Below are positions 48,894 to 62,227 of a DNA stretch of 64,000 bases, piece after piece. The notes under the pieces were generated by a model. It searched no databases. It was not told where the DNA came from and worked only from the letters and a program-made list of their open reading frames with translations. The DNA is from Undibacterium hunanense (GTDB taxonomy: Bacteria; Pseudomonadota; Gammaproteobacteria; Burkholderiales; Burkholderiaceae_D): contig NZ_JACOGF010000011.1 in assembly GCF_014284335.1 (NCBI RefSeq), forward strand, positions 62,001 to 126,000, read 5' to 3'. The stretch's first letter is position 1; every line of letters begins with the position of its first letter. Made by a program: the position numbers and the translations under genes.

Positions 48894-48925
48894 TTAGTAC
48901 CAATAGCACCAATTAGTACCAATAG
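48894..48925 (+). repeat. 13-bp direct repeats upstream of the ferritin-like operon
   Basis: TTAGTACCAATAG occurs at 48894-48906 and again at 48913-48925, six bases apart (19-base period). They end where the ribosome-binding site of the microprotein gene begins. Direct repeats at this place are typical of an activator or repressor binding site. Confidence 0.6.
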
Positions 48926-48935
48926 GGAGATGACG

Positions 48936-49076
48936 ATGTATCACCTGCATACCAGACAGCAGCTTCAGCAGATCCAGTGGCTGCTGTCAGTCACAGATAG
49001 TCACGCCATGACAAGTCACTACAAGGCATTGCAAGCGCGCACCAGGCTTATGATGCATGCCCAGCAAATGAAATAA
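48936..49076 (+). CDS. 46-residue microprotein at the head of the ferritin-like operon
   Basis: ATG at 48936 with GGGAG six bases upstream opens a frame of 46 codons ending TAA at 49074-49076. The protein starts MYHLHTRQQLQQIQWLL and ends LMMHAQQMK. It is helical, rich in Gln, Leu, His and Met, and has no transmembrane segment. It precedes the ferritin-like gene by 45 bases, on the same strand. No known family is recognised; the codon-level case rests on the ribosome-binding site and position. It may be a small protein or a leader. Confidence 0.5.
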   Translation: MYHLHTRQQLQQIQWLLSVTDSHAMTSHYKALQARTRLMMHAQQMK

Positions 49077-49121
49077 CGTAAATGAAATAACCGTCAGCAC
49101 TGATCCCAGCAAGGAGAATTC

Positions 49122-50156
49122 ATGATTCGCCTCAAACATGCACTGATTGAATGTCATGACAATAGCTTTGAAGGTCGCCTGAAAGCGCTCAAACATTCAT
49201 TGCAAACAGCCATAGAGTTAGAGCATTCGACCATACCGCCGTATCTGTATGCCCTGTATTCGATCAAGACTGATCAGAACCTGGAAATTGCCTATCTCAT
49301 CAAGTCCATCGTGAAGCAGGAAATGCTGCATATGGCGCTGGACTGTAATGTCCTCAATGCGATAGGTGGCCACCCGAAAATCGACCATCCGCGTTTTATT
49401 CCCCATTACCCTGGTCATTTGCCTGGTGCTGTGGAAGACAGCCTGATCGTGCCGCTGGCAGCCATGTCGAAACAATTAGTACATGATGTGTTTATGGTGA
49501 TAGAAGAGCCGGCAAAGACGGTAGATGGGGTCGATCCGCCACCTGATGGCATGACGATAGGGCAGTTCTATCAGCATATACAGAAAGAAATCACGGCACT
49601 CGGCAAGCTTGGCAATATTTTTACCGGCAAGCCGGAAAAACAACTGGTCACGGGTTTTCCCGAATTGCAGTACAAGGGTGTCACGGATGAAGCCAGTGCG
49701 CTGGCAGCCATTGATATGATCGTCGAGCAGGGCGAGGGCAGCGATGTCAGTCCTATCGATCCGGAACATCAATTGGCCCACTATTACAAATATGCCGAAA
49801 TTTATTATGGCAGGAAACTCGTTGCCAACCCTGATCCACAGCCCGGCAAACCGGCATGGGTATTCGAAGGCCACCGCATAGAATTTGATGCCGGTGGTAT
49901 CTACCCCGTTATCAGCAATCCGCAAAGACTGAACTATGCATACCAGCCGCGCATTGCAGACCTGAACCTGACTTTCAATGCCACCTATTCAGACATGCTG
50001 CGCAAGCTGCATGCCGTATTCAATGGTCAGCCAGACCGGCTGGCGCTGGCCCTGCTGTCTATGCAGGCACTGCGTGAGCAGGCGCAACTGCTGATGACCC
50101 AGGAAGTGGTACCCGGCCAGACTGCCGGTCCGACCTTTGACTATATTCCCGCCTGA
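49122..50156 (+). CDS. VioB-type ferritin-like protein (iminophenylpyruvate dimer synthase-like)
   Basis: A 344-residue cytoplasmic protein. The N-terminal two thirds form a ferritin-like four-helix bundle: E34-H35 in IELEHSTIPPYLYAL, E67-x-x-H70 in KQEMLHMALDCNVLNAIGG, and the second pair in the HQLAHYYKYAEIYYG helix, the di-metal ligands expected of the family. The closest named relatives are the ferritin-like domains of VioB and RebD and free-standing proteins of the same Pfam family (ferritin-like, 'VioB'). AAGGAG precedes the ATG. The PQQ-propeller gene follows 18 bases after. No haem or FAD domain is visible, so it is not a full VioB. Probable metal-dependent oxidase; substrate unknown. 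Confidence 0.85.
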   Translation: MIRLKHALIECHDNSFEGRLKALKHSLQTAIELEHSTIPPYLYALYSIKTDQNLEIAYLIKSIVKQEMLHMALDCNVLNAIGGHPKIDHPRFIPHYPGHLPGAVEDSLIVPLAAMSKQLVHDVFMVIEEPAKTVDGVDPPPDGMTIGQFYQHIQKEITALGKLGNIFTGKPEKQLVTGFPELQYKGVTDEASALAAIDMIVEQGEGSDVSPIDPEHQLAHYYKYAEIYYGRKLVANPDPQPGKPAWVFEGHRIEFDAGGIYPVISNPQRLNYAYQPRIADLNLTFNATYSDMLRKLHAVFNGQPDRLALALLSMQALREQAQLLMTQEVVPGQTAGPTFDYIPA

Positions 50157-50174
50157 TTTTTTTGGAGAACATCG

Positions 50175-51857
50175 ATGACGCAAACTAACTGGTGGATGTT
50201 TCATGGTGACACTGCCCATACCGGCGAGGTACAGGGCAGCGACATCAATCGTGACAGTCTGGAGCGCTTTGCGCTGCTGCATGATGTACCGATTCCTGGC
50301 CCGGTATTGTCAGTGCCGGCCATCGTGGATGACTATCTGTATGTCGGTCTGGCTAACAACCATGAATTACCTGGTGCAAACGGTGGCAAGTTCATGAAAA
50401 TTGAACTGGCCAGCGGCAAGACGGTGGCCCATTATGAATGGCCGATAGATCCAAAAGAGGGCGACACCCACGGCTTCATGGGCATGGGCTGTACCCCGGC
50501 GATATGGAATAATAATGTGTATTTCAGTGCTTTCAACGGCAAGTTTTATTGCCTGAATGCGACTGATCTCAGTCTCAACTGGGTGGTTGACCTGCGCCAT
50601 GCTGACCCCGATCATAATCAGCCCACCTCCAACCTCGGTGATGTCAGTGCTGGGGTCCCTGCTGCGGGCTGGTCGTCCCCTGTGGTTGCTTCGCAGGATG
50701 GCACTAACGGGCTGGTGTTTGTTGGCATGGGCGAGGGTGAAAACCCTGGCTGCTTTGGCTTTGTGTATGCGCTGGATGCGCTGAGCGGGCAGGTGCAATG
50801 GATATACTGCACCTGCCAGTATGAAGAAGGCGTACCCAATTTGCCGAATGTATTACCGCCCGAATCGGTGTCTGGCAGCTTGCCTGCCATGTATTCAATG
50901 GGGCCGAACAATCCGGCCATACGCGGGGCCTCTGTGTGGTCATCCATTGCCTATGATGAACGACTGGATCGCCTGTACTGCGCCACCGGCAATCCGGTGC
51001 CGGACAGTGCCTTGCCCAGCAAAGGGTTTTCCAACGGCATCCTGTCGCTGGATGCCGCGACGGGCACGTTCCGTGGTTTTTTCCAGCCACCACCAGAAAG
51101 CAGTTATCGTTCCTCTGACGTTGATGTTGACTTTGGCGGATCGCCCACCCTGATGACCATCAATGGCCAGCGCGTGGTGACTGCCGGTTGCAAGAATGGC
51201 GGCTTCTTCAGGCTTGATGCAGCTACATTGAAATTGTTGAACTGGCGCCAGTTACTGCCTTACTACAATGACGGCAGCCAGATCCCTACTGTTGATCCAC
51301 ACGTATCACCGAATGACCAGCGTCTTGATCCTTATGTGCCGAATCAGGCATCGGATGAAGAAGATCAGGAAAATTATTCCGGCACCTATAGCACGGCAGC
51401 CGTGCATACCAAACTGGGGCGTCTGTTCATGGGTGTCGGTGGCAATAATTATCATAATGTCGAAGCCGGTATTGATTACCGCACCACACCCTTCCTGCGG
51501 GCGCTGGACTGGGAAACCCTGGAAGATGCCTGGGCCATGGATGACAGCGATCCGCGCTTGTATATCGAAGCACAGCCACCCATGTACCGGACACCCGGCG
51601 AATCTGGCCTCAGTTCACCGGTGGTGGTGAATGACCTGGTGTTCTTTTCCACCTCCAAAGTGGCGGTGTATGCCTTTGATGCCTATACCGGAAAAATGCT
51701 GTGGCAAGATCAACTGGGCGACCAGACCGGCGGCATGAATGGCGGTTATGGCTATTGCCTGGGGCCTGCGGTGGCCGGTAACTACATGGTGGCTGGTGCA
51801 CTGGTATTTGGCAAACAGGGCGGCGTGCTGCGTATCTACGGTTTGAAAGACAAGTGA
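50175..51857 (+). CDS. PQQ-binding-like beta-propeller protein without signal peptide
   Basis: A 560-residue protein of the quinoprotein alcohol dehydrogenase-like fold. The W-docking repeats appear as GPVLSVPAIVDDYLYVGLA, AAGWSSPVVASQDG, GLSSPVVVNDLVFFS and FDAYTGKMLWQ. It starts MTQTNWWMFHGDTAHTG and has no signal peptide, although PQQ dehydrogenases act in the periplasm. Cofactor ligands of a true dehydrogenase (Cys-Cys disulfide, calcium Asp) are not obvious, so it may not bind PQQ. GGAG stands before the ATG. An MntP-like gene follows 4 bases after. Confidence 0.8.
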   Translation: MTQTNWWMFHGDTAHTGEVQGSDINRDSLERFALLHDVPIPGPVLSVPAIVDDYLYVGLANNHELPGANGGKFMKIELASGKTVAHYEWPIDPKEGDTHGFMGMGCTPAIWNNNVYFSAFNGKFYCLNATDLSLNWVVDLRHADPDHNQPTSNLGDVSAGVPAAGWSSPVVASQDGTNGLVFVGMGEGENPGCFGFVYALDALSGQVQWIYCTCQYEEGVPNLPNVLPPESVSGSLPAMYSMGPNNPAIRGASVWSSIAYDERLDRLYCATGNPVPDSALPSKGFSNGILSLDAATGTFRGFFQPPPESSYRSSDVDVDFGGSPTLMTINGQRVVTAGCKNGGFFRLDAATLKLLNWRQLLPYYNDGSQIPTVDPHVSPNDQRLDPYVPNQASDEEDQENYSGTYSTAAVHTKLGRLFMGVGGNNYHNVEAGIDYRTTPFLRALDWETLEDAWAMDDSDPRLYIEAQPPMYRTPGESGLSSPVVVNDLVFFSTSKVAVYAFDAYTGKMLWQDQLGDQTGGMNGGYGYCLGPAVAGNYMVAGALVFGKQGGVLRIYGLKDK

Positions 51858-51861
51858 GGCT

Positions 51862-52404
51862 ATGATGCTTGAAGTTATTTTATTTGGTGTTGCCGCTGGC
51901 CTGGACAATTTGCAGGTAGGTTCTTCCATCGGCCTGATGCCCATGCAGCGCCGGCGCCTGCATCTGCTGGCACTGGGGTTTTGTATCTGCGAACTGGGTG
52001 GTGCCATACTCGGCCTGCTACTGGGGCGGGCTTTTCTTGCGCAGATCGGTCCCTTGGCCAATGGCCTGGCATCGTTGGTGATGCTGGCCTGCGGGGTGGT
52101 GATCTTGTGGCTGGCTTTTCGCAATGAGGCAAAGGCCTTGCCGGATTTTGTGAATCACAAAGCCGTGCTGTTTCTGCTGCCCTTGTCACTGAGCCTTGAC
52201 AACGTGATTGCCGGTGCCGGCATCAGTTTTTCCAGTGCACCGGTACTCACTTCTGCCATTGTGGTGGGGGTGATCAGTGCTGCCATGGCTTGTTCAGGAT
52301 TGTACCTGGCCAACTGGTTGCGCCGGTTTATGCCACGGCGCATAGAAATGCTCTCTGGTGCTTACCTGTGCTTTCTGGCCGTGCGCATGATGATCGCAGA
52401 CTGA
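51862..52404 (+). CDS. MntP-like membrane protein (putative metal exporter)
   Basis: A 180-residue protein of six predicted helices in two repeats, each with an acidic residue in the membrane: Asp15 in AAGLDNLQVGS and Asp113 in SLSLDNVIAGAG. This is the pattern of MntP (manganese export) and related cation exporters. It lies inside the seven-gene operon, between the propeller genes. Start is ATG at 51862 with GAGG just upstream. Metal specificity is inference. Confidence 0.75.
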   Translation: MMLEVILFGVAAGLDNLQVGSSIGLMPMQRRRLHLLALGFCICELGGAILGLLLGRAFLAQIGPLANGLASLVMLACGVVILWLAFRNEAKALPDFVNHKAVLFLLPLSLSLDNVIAGAGISFSSAPVLTSAIVVGVISAAMACSGLYLANWLRRFMPRRIEMLSGAYLCFLAVRMMIAD

Positions 52405-52407
52405 CTG

Positions 52408-53676
52408 ATGACCATGCGCGCATTTGTTACCGAGCTTAATTTTCCCACCAGCCTGGCGCTGGCACCGGATGGCCAGGTCTATGTGGCAGAGTCGGGTTTG
52501 CCGTTTGACCATGCCCCCAAAGGCGGGCGCGTATTACGTGTCAATGAAGATGGCAGCGTTGCCGAGTTGCTCAAGGATTTGCGGCAACCGGTGAATGGCC
52601 TGGTCTGGCATGACAATAGCCTCATCATTTCTGAAGGCGGTTTTCCGGGGCGTATCAGCCGCTTGGACCTGGCAACTGGTCAGCACCATACCTTGCTGGA
52701 TGATTTGCCCGGTTTTGGCAACTACCATACCAATATGGTGGCGATCGGGCCGGATCATAAAATCTATTTCGGCCAGGGAGCCATGACCAATAGCGGCATC
52801 ATAGGTACCGATTCGAATGATCTTGCATGGCTGCGTGAAATCAAACATGCGGCTGATATTCCCGGCTATGACATCAGCCTGAGTGGGCAGGTGGCGACCA
52901 TTACCGATCCGGAAGGGCGACTGGTGTCCACCAGCGCCTTTGCCCGCTATGGCCAGGTGCATGCCGCGGATACCCGCATGGCGGCACAATTGCCCTGCAC
53001 GGCCAGTGTCATGCGTTGCAATCTGGATGGCAGTGAGCTGGAACTGGTAGCATGGGGCATACGCAATGCCTATGGCTTGCTGTTCTTGCCGGATGGCCGT
53101 TTGATCGCGACCGAACAGGGGACCGATGTGCGTGGTGTGCGCCCGGTCTGGAACTGCCCTGATTTCCTGTTCGAGATCAAGCAGGGGGCATGGTATGGAT
53201 GGCCAGACTATTTGGGCGGAAAACCTGTCAGCTCACCCGTTTATCGCAGCCCGGATGGTGTGGCGCAGGAATTTGTGTTGACCAACCATGCACAACTGCC
53301 GCCGCCAGAATCGCCGCTGCTGGCATTTGATGTGAATGCCTGCGCCGTCAAGATGGCACTGATACCAGACAGACTGTCCCATGCCGGAGATTTACTGGTG
53401 GCGCAGTTTGGTGATGAACGCCCCATGACCGGGCCACCCGGCCCGCGTGTCGGACGTAATCTGGTACGGGTGAATACCCGTGACTGGAGCCTGCATCCTT
53501 TACCGCAACTGCCATGGTATCGCCCCATCGATGTAGCGTTTTCTGCTGACGCTGCCTTTGTCTATGTGGTGGACTTTGGTGACTTTGAATTTACCGCAAA
53601 AAAAGACATTGTGGCGCGCGCCGGTAGCGGTGGCGTCTGGAAAATACCTGTTGATTTTATGGAGCTGAGATCATGA
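52408..53676 (+). CDS. Six-bladed beta-propeller (sugar dehydrogenase / sorbosone dehydrogenase-like) without signal peptide
   Basis: A 422-residue protein with repeating propeller blades: FPTSLALAPDGQVYVAESG, NGLVWHDNSLIISEGGFPG, IRNAYGLLFLPDGRLIATEQG and RPIDVAFSADAAFVYVVDFG. It resembles soluble glucose/sorbosone dehydrogenases and the ScyE-type propellers that occur in some natural-product clusters. No signal peptide is present, so it is cytoplasmic as far as can be seen. It starts 3 bases after the MntP-like gene, and its end overlaps the next gene by four bases. Confidence 0.8.
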   Translation: MTMRAFVTELNFPTSLALAPDGQVYVAESGLPFDHAPKGGRVLRVNEDGSVAELLKDLRQPVNGLVWHDNSLIISEGGFPGRISRLDLATGQHHTLLDDLPGFGNYHTNMVAIGPDHKIYFGQGAMTNSGIIGTDSNDLAWLREIKHAADIPGYDISLSGQVATITDPEGRLVSTSAFARYGQVHAADTRMAAQLPCTASVMRCNLDGSELELVAWGIRNAYGLLFLPDGRLIATEQGTDVRGVRPVWNCPDFLFEIKQGAWYGWPDYLGGKPVSSPVYRSPDGVAQEFVLTNHAQLPPPESPLLAFDVNACAVKMALIPDRLSHAGDLLVAQFGDERPMTGPPGPRVGRNLVRVNTRDWSLHPLPQLPWYRPIDVAFSADAAFVYVVDFGDFEFTAKKDIVARAGSGGVWKIPVDFMELRS

Positions 53677-53897
53677 GCATGGTTTCTTTTGGAAAAGATA
53701 TTGCCCCGCTGTTCAATCAATTTCGCGCGTCCATGATGTGGCGGCTGGACCTGACAGATTATGAACAGGTCAAAGCCAATGCCGACATGGTGCTGACGCA
53801 GATTCAAGGTGGCATGCCACCACCGCCATATCCCCCTCTGACCACGGCACAGGTTGCCATGTTTCAGGCATGGATCAATCAGGGTTTTCCTAAATAG
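53673..53897 (+). CDS. Small cytochrome-c-like domain that lacks the haem motif
   Basis: A 74-residue protein: FGKDIAPLFNQFRASMM, then LDLTDYEQVKANADMVL and GGMPPPPYPPLTTAQVAMFQAW. The 'KDIxPLF ... DLxxYxxVKANAD ... MPP ... LT..QVA.FxxW' layout is that of small c-type cytochrome domains, but the CxxCH haem-binding motif is absent and there is no signal peptide. So it cannot hold covalent haem and must do something else, perhaps bind a partner. Its ATG overlaps the stop of the propeller gene (ATGA). Confidence 0.6.
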   Translation: MSMVSFGKDIAPLFNQFRASMMWRLDLTDYEQVKANADMVLTQIQGGMPPPPYPPLTTAQVAMFQAWINQGFPK

Positions 53898-53930
53898 TTT
53901 ATTTCCAATACGGGAAGAAAGAGAGACAAC

Positions 53931-54428
53931 ATGAGTCTGAATGCGCATTCCATTATCGGCACCTGGGAAATGGTAGAAGCCTGGGATATAGGCGATGACC
54001 CGAATGACCCGACCAAGAAAACCTACCCCTGGGGTAATCCATCCGCTGGTTACTGGGTGTATGACAAAAGCGGACATTTCAGCCTGATGATTTCGCAAAA
54101 TCCGCCACTGCCGATTCCGGCAGATCCCTTCAGCGGCGCACCGCAGTCGTCATGGCTGACGCCGGCCAAGCCCTGGGATGTTCCGCATTCATTGCTGATA
54201 GACAGCTTTGCCACAGCCAGCCCCTATGCCTACTTTGGGACCTATACCGTGGAGATGGATACCAATCATCCGCATCTTGGCGGCACGATAGTCATGAATG
54301 TATTTTCTGATGTCATGCGGGCCTACACAGCGACCGTGCAAAAGCGCACTTTCCTGTTCGACGGCCATGATTACCTGAATGTAGGCACGCCAGGTCAGTA
54401 CCTGCGACGCCTGAAGCGGCTGACCTGA
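53931..54428 (+). CDS. Lipocalin-like domain protein
   Basis: A 165-residue protein with the lipocalin-like pattern IIGTWEMVEAWD at the start, GYWVYDKSGHFSLMISQ in the middle and a YTATVQKRTFLFD segment near the end; it should be an eight-stranded beta-barrel. No signal peptide. Such proteins bind hydrophobic ligands, or hydrate or isomerise small molecules in natural-product pathways. It is the last gene of the co-directional block, 33 bases after the cytochrome-like gene. Confidence 0.75.
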   Translation: MSLNAHSIIGTWEMVEAWDIGDDPNDPTKKTYPWGNPSAGYWVYDKSGHFSLMISQNPPLPIPADPFSGAPQSSWLTPAKPWDVPHSLLIDSFATASPYAYFGTYTVEMDTNHPHLGGTIVMNVFSDVMRAYTATVQKRTFLFDGHDYLNVGTPGQYLRRLKRLT

Positions 54429-54508
54429 AGCGATGCCGCCAATCCTGCTCTTGCCTGCATGTTTTGGTGCCAGCAAGAGCAGGGCGTTCATTGATTTTCA
54501 GGGGCGTT

Positions 54509-61936: not shown

Positions 61937-62227
61937 TCAATGGAGCCGTCTCTTTTTTTCAGCCATCTCTCGCATGTTTGGCATGGACACGTCCGGCAGG
62001 CGAGCTTTGATGTAGATCTCAGTGGTGGTCACGCTCTCGTGGCCTAACAGGTGCTGGATGCGCTCAATCGGCGTTCCAGAGCGATACATATCGGTCGCCC
62101 CCTTCCCCTTCAGATCGTACATGCCAAAATTGGTCAAGTCTTCCTTGCGTACATATCGCCCGAACATGGCGACCAGTCCGGAATACGTGTATTTTTTTCG
62201 ACACGAGTATGTCCGAATGTCGGCCAA
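61937..62227 (-). pseudogene. Remnant of a tyrosine recombinase (integrase), C-terminal part
   Basis: Only about 96 residues remain. DLKGKGATDMYRSG then IQHLLGHESVTTTEIYIK is the C-terminal catalytic box of phage-type integrases: His-x-x-Arg/Lys region, the LLGH histidine and the nucleophilic Tyr in TEIYIK. The N-terminal DNA-binding domains and the first catalytic arginine are missing, so it cannot be active. It lies about 2.3 kb from the tRNA-Lys pair, a usual integrase target. Confidence 0.75.

Follow-up and report, generated by a model that had tools for sequence, protein, structure and literature searches.

A conserved gene cassette in Undibacterium hunanense: a putative cytoplasmic oxidation module around a ferritin-like protein

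The cassette and its genes

In the 6.28-Mb genome of Undibacterium hunanense (assembly GCF_014284335.1), six genes on one strand encode a ferritin-like protein, two beta-propellers, a membrane protein, a small helical domain and a lipocalin-like protein. They lie in a stretch of 64,000 nucleotides, positions 62,001 to 126,000 of contig NZ_JACOGF010000011.1, hereafter the window. A preliminary description of the region, made from the sequence alone, had proposed a seven-gene block opening with a microprotein. The seven open reading frames, all on the + strand between 48930 and 54428, are indeed tightly spaced (45, 18, 4, 3, -4 and 33 bases). As a set, however, the block holds for genes two to seven and not for the microprotein. 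The cassette thus delimited spans 49122 to 54428, with gaps of 18, 4, 3, -4 and 33 bases:

49122..50156, + strand: ferritin-like protein of family PF12902, 344 residues (226.1 bits; cut-off 22.3)
50175..51857, + strand: pyrroloquinoline quinone (PQQ)-type eight-bladed propeller without signal peptide, propeller 1, 560 residues (PF01011, 66.1 bits; cut-off 26.7)
51862..52404, + strand: MntP-like membrane protein, 180 residues (PF02659, 67.5 bits; cut-off 24.4)
52408..53676, + strand: sorbosone-dehydrogenase/ScyE-like propeller without signal peptide, propeller 2, 422 residues (GSDH, PF07995, 26.7 bits, barely over the cut-off of 25)
53673..53897, + strand: 74-residue domain lacking Cys and any CxxCH motif, its gene overlapping that of propeller 2 by 4 bases (present in all nine carriers)
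53931..54428, + strand: lipocalin-like protein, an accessory member, 165 residues (Lipocalin_5, PF13924, 35.3 bits; cut-off 25)

The two propellers, the MntP-like transporter and the lipocalin-like protein had already been named as such, and the Pfam scores bear this out.

Conservation and spread

The first five of these genes, the core, are kept together and in order in unrelated bacteria. Nine carriers are known: the window genome, four congeners, a member of another genus of the same family (G043), and three metagenome-assembled genomes (MAGs). By tblastn, the four congeners hold all six genes in order and are flanked on the left, as in the window, by OmpV-like and EamA genes. In G043 the first five genes occur in order within different surroundings (tblastn and upstream alignment). 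A scan of genome contigs returned five loci, of which three were new: a Lysobacterales MAG with six genes (L043), a Bryobacterales MAG with five (L044), and a second Bryobacterales MAG with only the ferritin-like protein, propeller 1 and the 74-residue domain (L045). Overall, the genes for these last three proteins occur in 9 of 9 carriers, always in the same order. The MntP-like and propeller 2 genes occur in 8 of 9 each, and in eight carriers all five core genes keep their order. The lipocalin-like gene is found in six, namely the five Undibacterium-group genomes and L043. Since the same set recurs in the same order in other taxa, the arrangement reflects more than chance, and the co-occurrence by which the preliminary description proposed to judge the block was found. 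Part of the order extends to a distant genome, where a 4,893-base contig (L064) carries a propeller (37% identity), an MntP-like stretch (33%) and a GSDH propeller (53%).

The distribution is patchy. Of the 392 genomes in the family sample, 6 have propeller 1. In the phylum sample it turned up in a single genome of 398, that of the window itself; the Lysobacterales order sample gave 1 of 200 (that of L043), and the L045 phylum sample 2 of 297 (those of L045 and L064). A search of 196 relatives for the 74-residue domain gave six carriers, identical with the six genomes that have propeller 1. Moreover, propeller 1 of the window shares 80% identity with that of the Lysobacterales MAG, but 71% with that of G043, which belongs to its own family. 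Because the distribution is both patchy and out of step with kinship, the data point to horizontal transfer; the supporting trees contain few taxa and some weak branches. A clean empty site was sought and rejected. For the GNAT gene on the right flank, 9 of 14 non-carriers give no more than 25-33% matches and the other 5 give none; the OmpV-like gene on the left has strong matches (76-79%) in 2 of 10 non-carriers, G034 and G018. In both, other genes lie between tolA and the OmpV-like gene, which marks the region as variable. Among plasmids, nine records match propeller 1, all below 26% identity.

The microprotein shares in none of this conservation. It has no Pfam match and no tblastn relative in the eight other carriers, and aligning the upstream regions of eight loci revealed no counterpart. 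Being present in one of nine carriers only, it was ruled out as a member. An earlier in-frame ATG lies at 48930, and just 5' of the microprotein start, at 48899-48926, are two copies of the motif AGTACCAATAG. At the other end, a perfect 11-base inverted repeat (54444-54483) lies 15 bases 3' of the lipocalin-like gene, with no T run directly after it. Counts of promoter-like sites (5, against 6.2 in shuffles) and terminator-like sites (9, against 5.6) were uninformative.

The ferritin-like protein and its wider family

Six candidate dimetal ligands of the ferritin-like protein (E34, E67, H70, E128, E205 and H220) are invariant in an alignment of 14 of 14 PF12902 proteins from different neighbourhoods. 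A Glu/His set of this kind binds two metals in ferritin-like enzymes, and judged by its residues the protein keeps a complete dimetal-type ligand set. The protein had been called VioB-type. Its membership of PF12902 stands, whereas the VioB family itself (TIGR04492) is not reached, at 23.4 bits against a cut-off of 1250 and with the domain aligning only in part. The name of that family is iminophenyl-pyruvate dimer synthase, and it shares the ferritin-like domain at this weak score.

Relatives of the ferritin-like protein were followed in ten plasmid neighbourhoods, chosen by the authors from 30 listed of 165 records. Three contain ebo-type genes, three a GMC oxidoreductase, one a large partner protein without ebo genes, and three neither. 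Like the GMC oxidoreductase pairs of Rhizobium, Methylorubrum and Bradyrhizobium, the cassette places a ferritin-like gene directly beside a gene of redox-enzyme type; unlike them, its putative redox partner is a propeller and not a flavoprotein. Two further PF12902 genes were seen in carrier genomes. In G043 (L038, 5996-9238), one stands directly before a LodA-like gene (LodA_N 220 bits, LodA_C 140 bits), a pairing also reported from fungi (PMC4417212). In the window's own genome (L039, 8134-12056), two genes resembling DUF692 and DUF2063 by eye come after the gene of a 688-residue protein that contains a PF12902 domain.

Links to ebo clusters

A family of large proteins of 590-910 residues that start with MSYL (L040, L043, L102, L103, L104) pairs with PF12902 genes beside ebo clusters in several phyla. 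None of the three members scanned has a Pfam match, and in L040 the large partner is fused to a ferritin-like domain. The cassette resembles these modules in several respects. Its ferritin-like protein has relatives of 38-43% identity beside the large partner in Azospirillum, Mycetohabitans, Gloeothece and Aureibacter. After the cassette, L043 has a 645-residue protein of this kind and then a second ferritin-like gene of ebo type, so that a single locus joins the two arrangements. The 645-residue protein shares 55% identity with the protein next to the ferritin-like gene in the ebo cluster of Mycetohabitans; with its counterparts in Azospirillum, Gloeothece, Aureibacter, L035 and L040 the identity is 31-36%. 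In L045, a 40-residue remnant of the large partner's N-terminus (75% identity) is found just upstream of the ferritin-like gene. A small GAF protein is also common to both settings: relatives of it adjoin ebo genes in L040 and lie close to the cassette in L045. In G043, the gene of a 140-residue GAF_2 protein (L031, 3812-4234) stops a few bases short of the ferritin-like gene, directly upstream of the cassette.

The cassette differs from the ebo-linked modules in that propellers take the place of the large partner in seven of nine carriers, L043 keeping the partner and L045 its remnant. Furthermore, tblastn with five L040 proteins (EboA, EboC, EboE and EboD/EboF-like) found no ebo gene at E 1e-3 in the window or in 12 other carrier stretches of 12-64 kb. 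The word 'ferritin' is absent from the main text of two ebo papers, PMC6282210 and PMC5133447. In a 12-sequence search, the 74-residue domain showed weak similarity to the C-terminal part of four of eight large proteins (E 3.5e-5 to 0.0024) and none to the other four, which is no more than suggestive of a relationship between the two.

The first propeller

Propeller 1 has the fold of quinoprotein alcohol dehydrogenases. Its best Foldseek match, obtained from a model with a mean predicted local distance difference test (pLDDT) score of 61.6, is the quinoprotein alcohol dehydrogenase 8gy2_A (E 6.9e-24). When aligned with three annotated PQQ-type plasmid proteins, its residues W255, N273, D317 and K340 fall in conserved quinoprotein pocket columns and are kept in L064, while the Glu column is ambiguous (E189/N190). 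The roles of the Trp (stacking), Asn, Asp and Lys are presumably those of methanol dehydrogenase.

In fold and in these four columns, propeller 1 is like 8gy2, 1kv9 and methanol dehydrogenase. It is unlike them in having no signal peptide, no vicinal Cys pair (present in two of the three aligned plasmid proteins), a score below the family cut-off and hosts that mostly lack PqqC. It reaches neither PQQ alcohol dehydrogenase (TIGR03075, 82.8 bits against 480.05) nor Acido-empty-quinoprotein group A (TIGR04528, 68.9 bits against 650). PqqC exceeded its cut-off in none of the six genomes of the first set, where G043 gave one weak match (22.3 bits); it is absent from five of five Undibacterium carriers. 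Among the genomes of the three MAG carriers L043-L045, one has it, that of L045 (331.7 bits). The latter served as positive control, and none of 14 named control genomes scored. A Cys metal site was also considered. Seven Cys are invariant in eight close members; since only three of them (C126, C212 and C339) persist in L064, no such site is claimed. L045 (1871-4158) has, in addition, a long-form propeller paralogue whose main piece shows 42% identity; it is read in two different frames, owing either to a frameshift or to faulty assembly.

The second propeller and the 74-residue domain

Propeller 2 shows a weak similarity to ScyE. It scores 45.4 bits against the ScyD/ScyE family cut-off of 80 (NF033206), and 39.5 bits against 122.2 for the PVC-type propeller family. 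According to PMC6282210, ScyE is a periplasmic protein with a Sec signal and is proposed to dimerize the scytonemin monomer oxidatively; propeller 2 differs from ScyE, as so described, both in predicted location and in falling below the cut-off. Two relatives in Deinococcus extend the comparison. In D. aetherius, a relative of 34% identity has a hydrophobic, lipoprotein-like N-terminus, and its gene overlaps by 4 bases the small gene that follows, as in the window. That next gene encodes a cytochrome c with a CQQCH motif, whereas propeller 2 of the window is leaderless and its partner Cys-free. The relative in D. peraridilitoris is 54% identical, has no apparent signal peptide and stands beside another propeller.

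In two of the eight carriers that have both, L030 and L043, propeller 2 and the 74-residue domain form one frame. The domain is predicted as four helices (pLDDT 85). It had been described as a haem-less, cytochrome-c-like domain, and the first half of this stands. For the second, neither Pfam nor Foldseek gave support. The only Pfam match is to a phage family (E 0.15), no cytochrome family appears among the Pfam matches of eight members, and the best Foldseek match has E 3.8, with no cytochrome among the matches listed and no PDB match at E 0.001. A profile of the domain misses the cytochrome c of D. aetherius, and an alignment with three cytochrome c sequences was too poor to be used. The cytochrome c identity was set aside as unproven. 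Among viral contigs, none of 52 pattern matches is related to the domain. On an Embleya plasmid, the domain begins a 166-residue protein beside a divergent ferritin-like gene; the match (E 0.6 in the whole collection) is given weight because of that neighbour.

As for the membrane protein, its two Asp-Asn motifs are kept in six aligned members, and the MntP equivalog NF008546 is not reached (31.1 bits against 214). Manganese, suggested in the preliminary description, is a candidate for its ion.

Predicted location

Quinoprotein dehydrogenases and sorbosone-type propellers are known as periplasmic enzymes, and the absence of signal peptides from the soluble members had been noted in the preliminary description. 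Two measures served to examine it: how far the open frame extends upstream of each start, and the highest hydropathy mean of any 12-residue stretch within the first 50 residues. In the window, 6 codons separate the upstream stop from the chosen start of the ferritin-like protein, 6 for propeller 1, 1 for propeller 2, 6 for the 74-residue domain and 11 for the lipocalin-like protein. With in-frame stops only 1-11 codons upstream, no alternative start adds a signal peptide in the window. The best N-terminal means are 0.52-1.28, lower than in two exported controls from the window (1.81 and 2.25). The observation therefore stands for the window, and signal peptides at other start codons, which had been named as its possible undoing, were not found there. 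In other carriers some upstream frames are longer, up to 112 codons, and the N-terminus of propeller 2 in L043 (1.63) comes near the weaker exported control. A cytoplasmic location of the soluble members is thus a prediction.

A possible oxidation module and its rivals

It is quite possible, though short of probable, that the cassette is a horizontally spread, putative cytoplasmic oxidation module around the dimetal-type ferritin-like protein. In its best reading, the module is related to the PF12902 modules that accompany GMC oxidoreductases and the ebo clusters of metabolite traffic. The dimetal centre would activate O2 and oxidize, perhaps oxidatively couple, a small and probably aromatic or hydrophobic metabolite of the cytoplasm. 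The propellers, with substrate or a cofactor of quinone type bound to them, might serve as the half that accepts electrons; the lipocalin-like protein may hold the product, and the MntP-like protein could adjust the metal supply. As a guess, the chemistry may be like the oxidative dimerizations ascribed to VioB and proposed for ScyE; coupling of an aromatic metabolite is suggested because of the latter proposal and the VioB family name. In favour of this module are the conserved order, including L064, the fusions, the 14 of 14 conserved ligand sets, the pocket columns, the oxidoreductase or ebo neighbours (6 of 10, with the large partner alone in one more), the LodA locus, the dimerization proposed for ScyE and the links seen in L043 and L045. 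Of the preliminary interpretation, the conserved cassette and the leaderless state of the window proteins are borne out, and the suggestion that a redox system had moved inside the cell gains some support from the exported counterpart in D. aetherius.

Several points weigh on the other side. Scores for VioB, PQQ alcohol dehydrogenase and ScyE all lie below their cut-offs. L045 has neither the MntP-like gene nor propeller 2, three of the ten plasmid neighbourhoods lack both ebo and GMC genes, and in D. peraridilitoris the propeller 2 relative occurs without other cassette genes in an 11.9-kb stretch (tblastn). As PqqC is missing from most carriers, a PQQ enzyme is doubtful there.

The last point bears directly on the idea that the cytoplasm harbours a true pair of PQQ-dependent dehydrogenases, supplied with PQQ by uptake or by the cell's own synthesis. 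The quinoprotein fold, the pocket columns and the PqqC of L045 speak for it. Yet PqqC is over its cut-off in none of the first six genomes and missing from two of the three MAGs, the vicinal Cys pair is absent from propeller 1, and imported PQQ is expected in the periplasm, so that the chance of such a pair appears slim. Hardly less improbable is a variant in which propeller 1 would be of PQQ-dehydrogenase type and, having shed its disulfide and signal peptide, would function in the cytoplasm. Its cofactor there would not be PQQ but another one, of quinone type or metallic, which the ferritin-like dimetal enzyme might produce; electrons would pass to a haem-free domain descended from cytochrome c. 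Also improbable, if a little less so, is a metal-handling island, in which manganese or iron would be managed by the MntP-like pump, the ferritin-like protein and propellers that bind metal, and no small-molecule chemistry would take place. It fits the MntP-like gene in eight of nine carriers and L064, and the ferritin-like fold with intact ligands. However, L045 has the module without that gene, the neighbours of the PF12902 relatives are not metal genes but GMC oxidoreductases, LodA and ebo genes, and the lipocalin-like protein and two propellers are left unexplained.

A non-catalytic scaffold is unlikely too, though it deserves somewhat more consideration. Here the propellers, 74-residue domain and lipocalin-like protein would be empty relics that build a binding complex for a sensed or stored ligand. 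The weak family scores, the haem-less partner and the sub-threshold match of propeller 1 to an NCBIfam 'empty quinoprotein' group agree with this, whereas even distant members retain the residues of the pocket and of the ligand set. Finally, the genes could be chance neighbours without joint function, in keeping with their rarity (the six family genomes and the single, own genome of the phylum sample). With the same order in distant taxa amid different surroundings, and with gene fusion, this seems very improbable; the conserved order already contradicts it.

Significance

No description of this cassette was found in the published literature. As far as that literature was searched, it is an undescribed combination of known families with an unusual predicted location, and not a new fold. 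Two leaderless propellers together with a dimetal-type ferritin-like protein, in hosts that mostly lack PqqC, make it testable whether this fold functions in the cytoplasm with another cofactor. At the same time, the link of L043 and L045 to the ferritin-like partner of ebo clusters offers a handle on a widespread family whose members are mostly named 'ferritin-like protein'.

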